Shown piece after piece: positions 59,781 to 64,000 of a DNA stretch of 64,000 nucleotides. The notes under the pieces were generated by a model. That model searched no databases. It had not been told where the DNA came from and was given only the letters and a program-made list of their open reading frames with translations. How positions within the stretch are numbered: position 1 is the stretch's first letter; every line of letters begins with the position of its first letter. Source of the DNA: Albidovulum denitrificans (GTDB lineage Bacteria; Pseudomonadota; Alphaproteobacteria; Rhodobacterales; Rhodobacteraceae); contig NZ_PVEP01000001.1 of NCBI RefSeq assembly GCF_002973535.1, positions 248,001 through 312,000 on the forward strand, given 5' to 3'. The translations under genes were made by a program, and so were the position numbers.

Positions 59781-60098
59781 CTATTCGCCGTCGCCATAGC
59801 GCGCGTCGTCATCGGATTCGTCCTCCCCCTCGGGCAGGTATTTGCCCGACAGGCGGATCGACTGGTCGTCATGGCGCGGGTCCATCACCACGTCCGAGGG
59901 CAGTTCCCCGGTCAGCCAGTCGCGAATTTCGTCGCGGGCATCCGCAGGCTCCTGCTCCGTCAGTTCCGCGATATAGGTGATGAAGGCGCGCTGGTCGCCG
60001 TCGATCTCATCCAGCTCCGCCTCATCGGCATCGGGCCAGCGGTCGATGATCGCCTCATAGAAGGCCGCCCAGTTGTCCTGCACATGATGCCACTTCAT
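59781..60098 (-). CDS. Divergent CsbD-like small acidic protein
   Basis: A 105-residue protein whose start MKWHHVQDNWAAFYEAIIDRWPDADEAELDEIDGDQ resembles the CsbD stress-protein family (MxWxxVxxNWxxFxxxxxxxW). It then diverges into YIAELTEQEPADARDEIRDWLTGELP and a disordered, Asp/Glu-rich C-terminal tail ending SDDDARYGDGE. GGGGAG lies eight bases before ATG 60098. CsbD proteins are abundant under stress, and their function is unclear. It converges on phoB. Confidence 0.7.
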   Translation of the reverse strand: MKWHHVQDNWAAFYEAIIDRWPDADEAELDEIDGDQRAFITYIAELTEQEPADARDEIRDWLTGELPSDVVMDPRHDDQSIRLSGKYLPEGEDESDDDARYGDGE

Positions 60099-60196
60099 CG
60101 CCACGGCTCCCCGGAAATGATCGTCTTGTCCAATCTGCACCCGATCGACCCGCCGGAAAAGCCACCCGGCGGTAAAATAGGCGCGCGTGGACGGGG

Positions 60197-60310
60197 TCAG
60201 AACCAGTTCTGGACCGTGCGCGCGCCCGAGGAGACATCATCGCCGACCCCGGCGATGGTGTTGCAGGCGGCCAGGGTGCCAAGAAGCACGATCAGCGCGA
60301 TTTTCTTCAT
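60197..60310 (-). CDS. Entericidin A/B family lipoprotein
   Basis: A 37-residue small lipoprotein: MKKIALIVLLGTLAAC, a lipobox ending at C16, followed by NTIAGVGDDVSSGARTVQNW. This matches the entericidin pattern (NTxxGxGxDxxxxG). Entericidins are small membrane lipoproteins implicated in stress-dependent cell lysis or its antidote in E. coli. GAGGA lies eight bases before the ATG. It starts only four bases after the stop of the large substrate-binding protein gene and is probably co-transcribed with it. Confidence 0.85.
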   Translation of the reverse strand: MKKIALIVLLGTLAACNTIAGVGDDVSSGARTVQNWF

Positions 60311-60314
60311 CTGC

Positions 60315-62129
60315 TCAGTCCTCATACCACCAGACTTCCGGCTGAAAGCCCGGCCAGTCGCCATATAGCGGAATACGTTCGGGATAGTGAAGATTTGCCG
60401 AATGCGCAATCTTGCTGGTCTTTGAAAACCAGAGTGGGATGACCGTGCGCCCCGCCGTCAGCACCCGGTCCAGCGCCTGCGTCGCGGCGATGAAATCGTC
60501 GGTATTGGCGGAATTCAGCATCGCGCCGATCAGGCTGTCCACGGCGGGTGACTTGATCCCGGCCCAGTTCCGCGCGCCGGGCAGGTCGGCCACCTCGGAC
60601 CCCCAGTAAAGGTACTGCTCATTGCCGGGGCTAAGGGACAGCGCGCGCCAGATATAGGTCATGTCGAAGGCGTAGCGGTCGGTCCGTTCTTTGAATTGCG
60701 CGGTGTCGGCGACGGTGACGGTCGGGCTGATGCCAAGGCGTTTAAGCGCCTCGACATAGATGTCGATGATCGACTGCGCCTCGGTCGATCCGGCGGCGAG
60801 GAGAATCTCGAAGGCGAAGGGTTCCCCGGCCGCGTTCTTCAACACCCCGTCCTGCACCGTCCATCCGGCATCTGCCAGAAGGCCCACCGCCGTCTTCAGG
60901 TTCTTGCGGTCGAGCGAACGTTCCGCAGAACCCACGGGCAGGGAATAACCCTCGATCGTGCCGGGCGGCAGGTCGGCGGCAAAGGGCGCCAGAAGATCGG
61001 CCACCCGACCCGTGGCGGGCCCGTGATCCATGCCAAGGACGGAGTTGGAGAAATACGACGTGATGCGCGGTTCGGTCCCGCCGTTCAGCGTCATGTTGAC
61101 GAATTCGAAGTTGAAGGCGTCGATCAGCGCCTCGCGCACGCGCCAGTCGTCGAAGATCGGGTTGCGCAGGTTCATCACGAAACCGATCATCCCCGAAGGG
61201 CGCGAATGCGGGATTTCGGACTTCACCACCGCGCCCGAGGCGATGGCGGGAATGTCAAAGCCGTTCTGCCAGCGCGCCGCGTTCGGTTCGCGGTAGCTGT
61301 TGGTCAGGCCCGCCGTAAAGGCCTGAAAAAGCCCGTTCTCATCGGCGAAATAGTCATAGCGGATTTCATCGAAGTTGAAGCGCCCCCGGTTGATGGCCAG
61401 ATCCTTGCCCCAGTAATCGGGATCGCGGCGAAAGCTGATATAGCGCCCCGGTTCGACCTTGCCGACGGTGTAGGGGCCAGAGCCGATATGCAGATCAAGG
61501 CTGCTTTTCTCGAAATCCTTCCCCGCCCAGTCCGCCTTTTTCAGGATCGGCCGCATCCCCATCAAAAGCGCCAGTTCCCGATCCGGTTCGGTAAAGGTGA
61601 AGCGGATCGAACGCGGGCCGGTCTGCTCCATCTTCGCCACCCGCGACCAGGCGCCCCGGTAGCGCGGATGGCCCTTGGTCCCCAATGTCTCATAGCTCCA
61701 CATCACGTCTTCGACCGTGACCGGGCTGCCATCGGAGAATTTCGCCTGCGGACGCAGGGTATATTCGACCCAGGTATGGCTTTCGTCCGTATCGACCGAT
61801 TCGGCCAGAAGCCCGTAGAGAGAGAAGGGTTCGTCGATGGATCGGGCCATCAAGGTCTCGAACGTGTAAAGCGACAGCCCCTCAACCGGGGTGCCGGTCA
61901 CGATATAGGGGTTGAGCGAATTGAAGCTGCCACCCACCCCCATGACGATCCGCCCGCCCTTGGGCGCATCGGGATTGACATATGGCAATGACACAAAATC
62001 GGGTGGGAGAGCGGGCTTGCCATACATAGCTATGCCATGCTGCGGGGCCGCCCGAAGCGGCAGCGCCGCAAGCGTCAGGATCATCGCCGTCGCGACAATC
62101 CGCGACAGCCCGAGGGGGATGGTTTTCAT
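60315..62129 (-). CDS. Peptide ABC transporter substrate-binding protein (family 5, YejA-like)
   Basis: Large periplasmic solute-binding protein of about 604 residues. It has a signal peptide (MKTIPLGLSRIVATAMILTLAALPLRA), then the SBP_bac_5 fold with YVNPDAPKGGRIVMGVGGSFNSLNPY, ETLMARSIDEPFSLYGLLAESV, YTLRPQAKFSDGSPVTVEDVMWSYETL and a long C-terminal lobe ending YPERIPLYGDWPGFQPEVWWYED. This resembles YejA, which binds oligopeptides or related compounds. ATG 62129 gives the cleanest signal peptide; ATG 62144 and 62150 are also possible. No permease or ATPase genes follow, so its transporter partners lie elsewhere. Confidence 0.87.
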   Translation of the reverse strand: MKTIPLGLSRIVATAMILTLAALPLRAAPQHGIAMYGKPALPPDFVSLPYVNPDAPKGGRIVMGVGGSFNSLNPYIVTGTPVEGLSLYTFETLMARSIDEPFSLYGLLAESVDTDESHTWVEYTLRPQAKFSDGSPVTVEDVMWSYETLGTKGHPRYRGAWSRVAKMEQTGPRSIRFTFTEPDRELALLMGMRPILKKADWAGKDFEKSSLDLHIGSGPYTVGKVEPGRYISFRRDPDYWGKDLAINRGRFNFDEIRYDYFADENGLFQAFTAGLTNSYREPNAARWQNGFDIPAIASGAVVKSEIPHSRPSGMIGFVMNLRNPIFDDWRVREALIDAFNFEFVNMTLNGGTEPRITSYFSNSVLGMDHGPATGRVADLLAPFAADLPPGTIEGYSLPVGSAERSLDRKNLKTAVGLLADAGWTVQDGVLKNAAGEPFAFEILLAAGSTEAQSIIDIYVEALKRLGISPTVTVADTAQFKERTDRYAFDMTYIWRALSLSPGNEQYLYWGSEVADLPGARNWAGIKSPAVDSLIGAMLNSANTDDFIAATQALDRVLTAGRTVIPLWFSKTSKIAHSANLHYPERIPLYGDWPGFQPEVWWYED

Positions 62130-62204
62130 TCTGGCGACACTGCTCATGTCCATTGTCTTTGTCCAAAGGCTAGCCGGGCTTCCTTGGCTTTTCAAACTTT
62201 TAGC

Positions 62205-62233
62205 TTGGACAGCGGCGAAGGACCGCGTATAAA
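62205..62233 (+). promoter_or_regulatory. Sigma-70-type promoter for a small RNA
   Basis: TTGGAC (62205-62210) and TATAAA (62228-62233) are separated by exactly 17 bases, predicting a start near 62240. It points away from the substrate-binding protein gene, and no open frame follows before the terminator. Confidence 0.75.
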
Positions 62234-62239
62234 GGGGCT

Positions 62240-62314
62240 ACTGCTCGATAGGTTTCTTGCCTGTATGAAACCTGCCTCAATAACTTAACGCCCGCCTCGT
62301 GCGGGCGTTTTTTT
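62240..62314 (+). ncRNA. Candidate small RNA with Rho-independent terminator
   Basis: A predicted transcript of about 75 bases. The 5' hairpin AGGTTTC (62250-62256) / GAAACCT (62267-62273) has a ten-base loop containing TTGCCTGTAT. A single-stranded linker CTGCCTCAATAACTT-like follows, then the terminator AACGCCCGC / GCGGGCGTT (62287-62309) with seven T residues to 62314. Promoter spacing, compact folding and a U-rich tail are what an Hfq-type trans-acting sRNA would show. No coding frame with a ribosome-binding site is present. I do not recognise a named RNA family. Tandem genes flank it in neither direction: the upstream gene is divergent and bdhA starts 170 bases later. Confidence 0.7.
62287..62314 (+). 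terminator. Rho-independent terminator of the candidate sRNA
   Basis: Perfect 9-bp stem AACGCCCGC / GCGGGCGTT with loop CTCGT; the T-run 62308-62314 overlaps the stem's last two bases. One of the strongest terminators in the window. Confidence 0.9.
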
Positions 62315-62445
62315 ATTCGGTCGGAGGTAGTCCCGGGCCGGGCACCCGCAACCCAGACCCGTCGCCGCGAATCGCATCTTCGCAACTTTTCCTCCCACCG
62401 CGGCACAAGCGCGTGAAGACAGTGGCATTCGCTAACGCAGCGTCT

Positions 62446-62466
62446 ATGTTCGCTGCATTGCAACAT
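62446..62466. promoter_or_regulatory. Candidate operator before bdhA (PhaR-like)
   Basis: ATGTT and AACAT arms enclose CTGC-ATT-GCAA (62453-62463), close to the TGC-rich palindrome (CTGC-N3-GCAG) that I recall for the PHB regulator PhaR. It lies 17 bases before the bdhA start. Tentative. Confidence 0.35.
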
Positions 62467-62483
62467 GTATCGAGGAGGCGACA

Positions 62484-63257
62484 ATGTCCCTATCCGGCAA
62501 GACGGCCATCGTGACGGGATCGAATTCCGGCATCGGTCTGGGATGCGCCCGGGAACTGGCGCGGGCGGGCGCGGATGTGGTGCTGAATTCTTTCACCGAC
62601 CGGGATGAGGATCACAAGCTGGCCGAAGACATGGCGAAGGAATTCGGCGTCAAGGTCCGCTACATCAAGGCCGACATGTCGAAGGGCGACGAATGCCGGG
62701 CGCTGGTCGAGAAGGCCGGTGGCTGCGACATCCTGGTCAACAATGCCGGGATCCAGTTCGTGTCCCCGATCGAGGAGTTCCCGGTCGAGAAGTGGAACGC
62801 CATCATCGCGATCAACCTGACCTCGTCTTTCCACACCATCGCGGCGGCGCTGCCGGGGATGCGCGAAAAGGGCTGGGGCCGGATCGTCAACATCGCCTCG
62901 GCCCACGGGCTGACGGCATCGCCCTTCAAATCGGCCTATATCGCGGCCAAGCACGGGATCGTCGGGCTGACCAAGACCGTGGCGCTTGAGGCGGCGGGCA
63001 AGGGCGTGACCTGCAACGCGATCTGCCCCGGCTATGTGCTGACCCCGCTGGTCGAGGCGCAGATCCCCGAGCAGATGAAGGTTCACAACATGGACCGAGA
63101 GACGGTGATCCGCGAGGTGATGCTGGACCGCCAGCCCTCGCGCCAGTTCGCGACGGTGGAAGAGATCGGCGGGACGGCGGTGTTCCTGTGTTCCGATGCG
63201 GCAGCGCAGATCACCGGGACGACGATTTCCGTCGATGGCGGCTGGACCGCGATGTGA
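62484..63257 (+). CDS. bdhA: 3-hydroxybutyrate dehydrogenase
   Basis: Short-chain dehydrogenase oxidising D-3-hydroxybutyrate to acetoacetate in PHB turnover (257 residues). It has VTGSNSGIGLG, the NNAGIQFVSPIEEFP segment typical of this enzyme, NIASAHGLTASPFKSAYIAAKHG with the catalytic Ser/Tyr/Lys, and NAICPGYVLTPLVEAQIP. GAGGAGG precedes ATG 62484. Acetoacetate is also released by the BKACE step of the carnitine cluster, though the two loci are 40 kb apart. A perfect 11-bp hairpin follows. Confidence 0.95.
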   Translation: MSLSGKTAIVTGSNSGIGLGCARELARAGADVVLNSFTDRDEDHKLAEDMAKEFGVKVRYIKADMSKGDECRALVEKAGGCDILVNNAGIQFVSPIEEFPVEKWNAIIAINLTSSFHTIAAALPGMREKGWGRIVNIASAHGLTASPFKSAYIAAKHGIVGLTKTVALEAAGKGVTCNAICPGYVLTPLVEAQIPEQMKVHNMDRETVIREVMLDRQPSRQFATVEEIGGTAVFLCSDAAAQITGTTISVDGGWTAM

Positions 63258-63263
63258 GGTGGC

Positions 63264-63289
63264 GTGTCGCCCGCACAAGCGGGCGACAC
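63264..63289 (+). terminator. Perfect hairpin after bdhA
   Basis: GTGTCGCCCGC and GCGGGCGACAC form an 11-bp perfect stem with tetraloop ACAA, six bases after the bdhA stop. No T-run, so it may stabilise the mRNA end rather than terminate. Confidence 0.55.
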
Positions 63290-63293
63290 GGGC

Positions 63294-63344
63294 GGGGGGC
63301 CAGCCCCCCGCGAGCCCCCCGGAGTATTTTGACAACGAAGAAGT
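63294..63344. repeat. Palindromic repeat family B, copy 4
   Basis: GGGGGGCCAGCCCCCC followed by GCGAGCCCCCCGGAGTATTT and TGACAACGAAGAAGTG. Inverted relative to the copy at 31697. Lies between bdhA and the patatin gene and supplies part of the latter's ribosome-binding region. Confidence 0.8.
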
Positions 63345-63354
63345 GAGGGGCCGT

Positions 63355-64000
63355 ATGACTGTTCGGCGGATCAATGTCGCGCTTCAGGGCGGCGGCGCGC
63401 ATGGCGCCTTTACCTGGGGCGTTCTCGACCGGCTGCTTGAGGATGAGACGGTGGAGATCGCCGGTATCTCCGGCACCTCGGCGGGGGCGCTGAACGGGGC
63501 CGCGCTGAAGGCGGGGCTGGTGACCGGGGGGCGGGATGCTGCGCGCGCGAACCTCGACTGGCTTTGGGAACAACTGGGCGCGGTGGGCGACATGCGGCTG
63601 GCGCATTGGTTCCGGGCCTTCCTGCCGATGGCGGGGATCTGGAACGACCTGACCGAGCGGCTGGCGCCGTTTTCGCCCATGGCCACCTGGCAGCGCGTCG
63701 TCAGCCCCTATGACTACGGCTGGTTCTATGCCAATCCGCTGGAACCCGTCGTGGCCGAGTTTCATTCCGACGCGGTCTGTCACACCGATGGCCCGTTCTT
63801 CTGCGTCGCCGCCACCAATGTGCGCAGCGGCAAGATCCGCGTGTTCACCGGCAATGAGATCACCACCGAGGCGATCCTCGCCTCTGCCTGCCTGCCGACG
63901 GTGTTTCAGGCGGTGGAGATCGCCGATCCCGCGACCGGGCGGATGGAGGCCTATTGGGATGGCGGCTATACCGGCAACCCGGCGCTGTTCCCGCTGTTCG
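63355..64000 (+). CDS. Patatin-like phospholipase family protein (3' end outside window)
   Basis: N-terminal 215 residues of a patatin-like serine hydrolase. It shows the oxyanion-hole glycine cluster LQGGGAHGAFTWGVLDRL and the nucleophile elbow GISGTSAGALNG. The catalytic aspartate motif is visible near the window edge as AYWDGGYTGNP. Relatives adjacent to bdhA are often annotated as PHB depolymerase-like or phospholipase; a role in PHB mobilisation is plausible but unproven. GAGGGG precedes ATG 63355. The frame is open to base 64000. Confidence 0.9.
   Translation, partial: MTVRRINVALQGGGAHGAFTWGVLDRLLEDETVEIAGISGTSAGALNGAALKAGLVTGGRDAARANLDWLWEQLGAVGDMRLAHWFRAFLPMAGIWNDLTERLAPFSPMATWQRVVSPYDYGWFYANPLEPVVAEFHSDAVCHTDGPFFCVAATNVRSGKIRVFTGNEITTEAILASACLPTVFQAVEIADPATGRMEAYWDGGYTGNPALFPLF

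Follow-up and report, generated by a model that had tools for sequence, protein, structure and literature searches.

Analysis of a 64,000-nucleotide stretch of the Albidovulum denitrificans genome (hereafter, the window) revealed a small RNA gene on the forward strand, at positions 62240 to 62311/62314, that is almost certainly an ortholog of StsR, making it the stsR gene of this member of the Rhodobacteraceae; the assignment was made by agreement of features. StsR ("sRNA targeting sRNA", formerly RSs0827) belongs to Rhodobacter (Cereibacter) sphaeroides, and passages of the published accounts describe it as a 72-nt orphan sRNA under the control of RpoHI/RpoHII that targets UpsM and the dcw leader and opens both to RNase E (PMC8307010, PMC8625941, PMC11354728, PMC5089854). 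Other passages add that it can bind Hfq (PMC8307010) and that RSs0827 is induced both when iron is limiting and after singlet oxygen stress of long duration (PMC3413700, PMC3688512). UpsM (RSs0682) is an sRNA derived from the dcw 5′ leader in R. sphaeroides. The preliminary description of this locus had treated the RNA as an unannotated sRNA; the kind of RNA is not new, since a relative is already known to have it as StsR. The parts worth following are its reach across the family and a probable second pairing segment at its 5′ end.

The promoter was read directly from the sequence and consists of a −35 element TTGGAC (62205 to 62210) and a −10 element TATAAA (62228 to 62233) separated by a 17-base spacer. 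TTGG and TATA were each conserved in all of 30 loci obtained by a DNA search in relatives of the family and aligned (the near loci). The predicted transcript runs from 62240 (or 62241) to about 62311-62314, and a start at 62240 with an end at 62311, inside the T run, gives 72 nt. It opens with a 5′ hairpin (62250 to 62273) whose 7-bp stem pairs AGGTTTC (62250-62256) with GAAACCT (62267-62273) around the ten-base loop TTGCCTGTAT (62257-62266), and it closes with an intrinsic terminator (62287 to 62314) formed by a 9-bp stem with arms AACGCCCGC (62287-62295) and GCGGGCGTT (62301-62309), the 5-base loop CTCGT and a T run up to 62314 that counts seven T including the stem end. Promoter, hairpin and seven-T terminator had all been reported in the preliminary description, and each of them lies where it had been placed.

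The promoter hexamers by themselves are unremarkable in comparison with chance. A consensus promoter scan of positions 60000-64000, whose rule demands T at the last −10 position, listed zero promoters, and the shuffled sequence yielded 1.0 on average. In the same interval there were 5 terminators vs 3.1 ± 1.7 in shuffles, among which that of stsR has the longest stem, and the fold of 62238-62315 reached −25.0 kcal/mol vs −14.2 ± 2.5 for shuffled sequences (z = −4.4; none of 200 shuffles equalled it). The TTG in the −35 element and the A at the second −10 position are compatible with RpoH rules as given in passages of PMC3441632, and the housekeeping sigma factor could fit too. Directly 5′ of the −35 element, the block CAAACTTTTAG (62193 to 62203, forward strand) is conserved along with the promoter in the alignment of 30 loci, perhaps because it may also contain, on the other strand, the −35 element of the divergent transporter gene. 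The pattern CAAACTTTTANNTTGG, with at most one mismatch, had a single match genome-wide, at stsR, and CAAACTTTTAG together with CTTGG occurred once in the genome. The CenR motif, TGA-N8-TGA in the passage that gives it, was not seen by eye in this conserved upstream block.

Conservation was first apparent in the near loci, in which the first 39 transcribed bases were identical in 30/30 cases while linker and terminator varied. Three of the nine pairs of the terminator stem were changed on both sides, in 7 cells of the alignment; 0/500 shuffles reached 7 cells and 1/500 reached three pairs. All 8 pairs of the 5′ hairpin (including a closing U-G) were invariant over 20 distinct rows, and since this hairpin never varies in the aligned set, it gives no information by itself on pairing. 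A covariance model found the RNA in 392/395 genomes of the family and in 349/351 genera, with no match in the remaining three genomes (G165, G184, and G438). Among 289 genomes drawn from the class, 5 family members scored at least 104.7 bits, and 15 matching genomes of other families had best scores of at most 31.6 bits, which we take for terminator-like chance matches. The preliminary description had called for such a search, and its outcome, with a terminator that covaries and a 5′ hairpin invariant in the aligned rows, bears out the proposal of an independent regulatory RNA of about 72-75 nt: promoter, RNA and terminator are conserved family-wide, the terminator carries compensatory changes, and the RNA matches StsR.

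Of the 97 loci located, 94 retained the sequence ACTGCTCG, the exceptions being G243, G070, and G406; the 97 loci come from four sets, and two of them (G000 and G002) are counted twice, in the near and the other-family sets. The 5′ domain was perfect in 30/30 other-family loci, partly because these were selected as the best-scoring of the covariance-model matches. Altogether, the 5′ domain (nt 1-39) is strongly conserved rather than invariant. The StsR copies of G099, G422, G138, G061, G369, G070, and G406 carry changes in the 5′ hairpin or loop, which is otherwise mostly constant, and lend themselves to tests of co-evolution with the leader. Some family genomes (G354, G415, G347, G204, G176, G158, and others) had several matches to the model; in G347 and G415 the additional match scores low (41.2 and 33.4 bits, respectively).

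The gene upstream of stsR lies on the reverse strand (60315 to 62129) and encodes a family 5 extracellular solute-binding protein (Pfam SBP_bac_5, E 8.4e-57); its start was set at the ATG at 62129, the open reading frame list beginning at a TTG at 62195. It is the divergent upstream neighbour of stsR in 93/95 located loci (30/30 near, 30/30 other family, 25/27 divergent, and 8/8 named); the pattern used for this count missed L095, L096, and L100, the last of which was recovered with a wider pattern. This near-constant arrangement, together with the conservation of the intergenic block CAAACTTTTAG with the promoter, is what could be expected if the RNA, or a common promoter region, mainly controlled the solute-binding-protein gene, and regulation of this gene had been suggested in the preliminary description. 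However, no 7-mer complement of StsR recurs in the leader region of the gene, where the largest excess of any of them was 4/58 distinct loci (expected 0.9), and the RNA is oriented away from this gene and does not overlap it, so that we consider this explanation improbable. A control region common to both genes is possible. The leader itself (62130-62204) is conserved among relatives; GATTGTTGCC, for instance, precedes the ATG in many of the loci. Within the coding sequence, at 62025-62034, the codon pair ATA-GCT, part of the palindrome CATAGCTATG, is often kept at the DNA level: ATAGCT was present in 49/72 finds of the motif GIAMYG or GLSMYG, and CATAGCTATG in 50/94 distinct loci. ATA is used once among the 33 Ile codons of this gene.

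Downstream of stsR and on the same strand, at a distance of 170 bases, lies a 3-hydroxybutyrate dehydrogenase gene, bdhA (62484 to 63257; TIGR01963, 380.5 bits vs a cut-off of 307.05). The strand, the strong terminator, a tiny frame of seven codons (ATG...TAA, 62265-62288) and a weak resemblance to the Rfam families Leu_leader (RF00512, 26.7 bits) and Trp_leader (24.1 bits) would suit an attenuator, or another kind of 5′ leader, that serves bdhA and encodes a short peptide. The scores obtained are nevertheless below the respective gathering scores of 50 and 41, and the RNA stays in loci without the gene: a BdhA-like gene starts at most 700 nt downstream in 65/95 located loci, with 23/30 near and 8/8 named loci but only 20/30 sampled other-family and 14/27 divergent ones. 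In addition, a leader peptide is unlikely because the ATG is missing in G099, G422, and G061, and the conserved part of the RNA is complementary to the leader of another operon. We therefore reject a bdhA attenuator or leader peptide as very improbable. The statement in the preliminary description that the RNA lacks a coding frame needs a correction on account of the seven-codon frame. Complements of the StsR 7-mer TCTTGCC were found in 12/58 bdhA-side regions (expected 2.5), an excess that is probably due to the coding sequence GGCAAGA close to where bdhA begins.

Cereibacter genomes were reached via the ChrR sequence of a solved structure, which gave 53 named loci, strain 2.4.1 not being among them. 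The first 39 nt were identical in C. johrii, C. azotoformans (recorded as Luteovulum azotoformans), C. changlensis, and C. ovatus, the genomes of which gave one near-full-length match each (query 1-125 or 1-130 of 141), and the stsR neighbourhood was common to all four species. C. johrii is taxonomically close to R. sphaeroides. A different, so far undescribed sRNA that happens to have the UpsM-binding sequence of StsR is scarcely credible against the single near-full-length match in each of the four Cereibacter genomes, the comparison being with species other than R. sphaeroides 2.4.1, and against the agreement of length, promoter type and target with StsR. A literature text search gave no match for the RNA sequence and nothing useful on RSP_0826-0828 or on StsR across Rhodobacteraceae.

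The identification of the RNA as StsR agrees with the sequence of its main pairing segment, TGCCTGTATGAAACCTG (StsR nt 19-35, 62258 to 62274, forward strand), which comprises loop and 3′ stem and is complementary to the dcw leader (UpsM). The mraZ leader of the A. denitrificans genome contains a perfect complement of nt 19-35, the match lying within the leader on the strand opposite mraZ, so that it is the mRNA that is complementary to StsR. Target search from the loop had been advised in the preliminary description, which also named TTGCCTGTAT as a seed candidate; the loop is indeed part of the predicted pairing region. A DNA search revealed this short recurring type of match in 23 of 36 other family genomes besides the own genome; no leader-type match was listed at E ≤ 0.1 in the other 13. 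Twenty relatives were fetched from those 23 (G006, G007, and G028 were left out) because a leader match had already been found in them, and all 20 contain a 16-base core of the target site, 190-242 nt upstream of mraZ. Together with the own genome they make up the 21 near leaders, in which the signal for nt 19-35 is present by selection. The dcw leader region had no Rfam match at gathering score.

For a set unselected for the target, 30 divergent genomes chosen for weak StsR scores were reached via mraZ, of which 28 gave leaders (G415 and G061 were left out, with too little leader at contig ends). In each set, leaders holding the complement of each 7-mer of the own or the consensus StsR were counted. 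In the divergent set, 7-mers within nt 19-30 had complements in 11 to 15 of 28 leaders (expected 1.2-1.5), and three consensus 7-mers within nt 20-28 had an exact complement each in 15/28 (expected 1.2-1.5). The duplex energy with the own StsR was determined in 27 of these genomes, G391 being also left out for its partial StsR: 14/27 leaders beat at least 59/60 shuffles, and the energy was not outstanding in the other 13, where at least 2/60 shuffles were as good. For the StsR of the A. denitrificans genome, its own leader was equalled by 1/60 shuffles and by 11/48 leaders from other genomes. Whole-leader duplex energy is a blunt test, and the 7-mer counts with the consensus StsR are clearer. 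In some divergent genomes, among them G070, G303, and G325, even the best match without gaps did not amount to a clear site, and a clear target signal is lacking in about half of the divergent genomes. In G369, StsR nt 27-49, which include non-consensus linker, make 23 perfect pairs with the own leader, and in G369 and G138 the own leader was better in duplex energy than all 48 others. The second seed put forward in the preliminary description, CTGCCTCAATAA, did not hold up, its 7-mer complements being found in 0 to 2 of 21 near leaders (expected 0 to 1.2); part of it, CTGCCTC, was matched in 11/28 divergent leaders (expected 1.9).

The 5′ segment CTGCTCG (StsR nt 2-8, 62241 to 62247, forward strand) was not among the seeds named earlier. 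Its complement in the dcw leader is CGAGCAG, with which it would pair. The complement was present in 20/21 near leaders (expected 1.2), which had not been selected for this segment, and in 9/28 divergent leaders (expected 1.8). In the 20 near leaders with both sites, CGAGCAG follows the first site at a distance of 35-43 nt downstream, and the two sites have the order that antiparallel pairing requires. The exact two-part pattern was found in 273/395 family genomes, counted without a filter for position before mraZ, and was absent in 122/395; a reversed-pattern control gave one match, in G100, and among the matches listed two were unlike a leader, namely G243 (its StsR copy) and G113. Cofolding of StsR with its own leader gave a gain of 22.7 kcal/mol over the separate folds via the main segment only, the 5′ segment not being used. 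The passages of published StsR accounts cited above make no mention of the 5′ end as a second pairing segment. Judged from complementarity, these data indicate that the 5′ end CTGCTCG is a probable second pairing segment.

The cell-division and cell-wall (dcw) cluster begins with mraZ, and in this genome both StsR segments are perfectly complementary to one stretch of the mraZ leader. A mechanism may be proposed whose first steps are carried over from passages on R. sphaeroides. Under stress and in stationary phase, the alternative sigma factors RpoHI/RpoHII would turn on StsR, which would bind Hfq and pair both with the dcw leader itself and with UpsM, its terminated form. This pairing would alter the structure of the leader and expose it to RNase E, and RNase E attack would result in lower dcw expression and slower growth. 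We infer in addition that both segments (nt 19-35 and nt 2-8) may pair at once, with the 5′ end closing a leader loop of 35-43 nt, which would explain the near-invariance of the first eight bases. On balance we favour an ancestral, family-wide switch from stress to cell division, in which the StsR loop and 3′ stem would act on the upstream leader site and the 5′ end on CGAGCAG 35-43 nt downstream, so closing the leader loop, and in which the partners could co-drift, as in G369.

An RNA studied in R. sphaeroides is accordingly present in almost every sampled genome of a large family (392/395), and a matching site precedes the cell-division genes in all fetched near leaders, which were selected for the match. 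Nothing across the 64-kb window reaches an Rfam gathering score, and as no Rfam family does so at the RNA, Rfam-based annotation would miss StsR; the alignment and covariance model obtained here could name it in other genomes. The second pairing segment provides a precise and testable account of the conservation of the 5′ end and of how the leader might be refolded for RNase E.

Among known systems, the Rfam families BjrC1505, mmgR (suhB) and Hrs13 resemble the RNA in being small and in the shape of the terminator, and were rejected at 22.9 bits vs a gathering score of 50 (RF02356), 20.2 vs 41 (RF00519) and 21.1 vs 52, respectively. StsR of R. sphaeroides 2.4.1, as described in the passages cited above, shares with the RNA its length of 72 nt (here predicted) and the UpsM/dcw leader target (here by complementarity); to its RpoHI/RpoHII control corresponds here a promoter that is compatible with RpoH and could also suit a housekeeping sigma factor. 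It differs in that the A. denitrificans genome lies outside the examined Cereibacter records and in that rpoE mRNA, another target reported for R. sphaeroides StsR in the passages considered, is not evident as a target in this genome. ChrR (TIGR02451) had no match in the A. denitrificans genome and was above the cut-off in 28/61 genomes of the relatives set, including several of the same genus; the site published for rpoE was also not recovered when the rpoE regions of two Cereibacter genomes were examined by duplex prediction, which takes no account of accessibility. UpsM differs in being the target and not the RNA found here, its site being elsewhere in the genome (G000:C1, about 973455-973517). 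Its likeness is that of a partner RNA: in the A. denitrificans mraZ leader, the complement of StsR is situated 227 nt upstream of mraZ, and a strong predicted hairpin lies further downstream.
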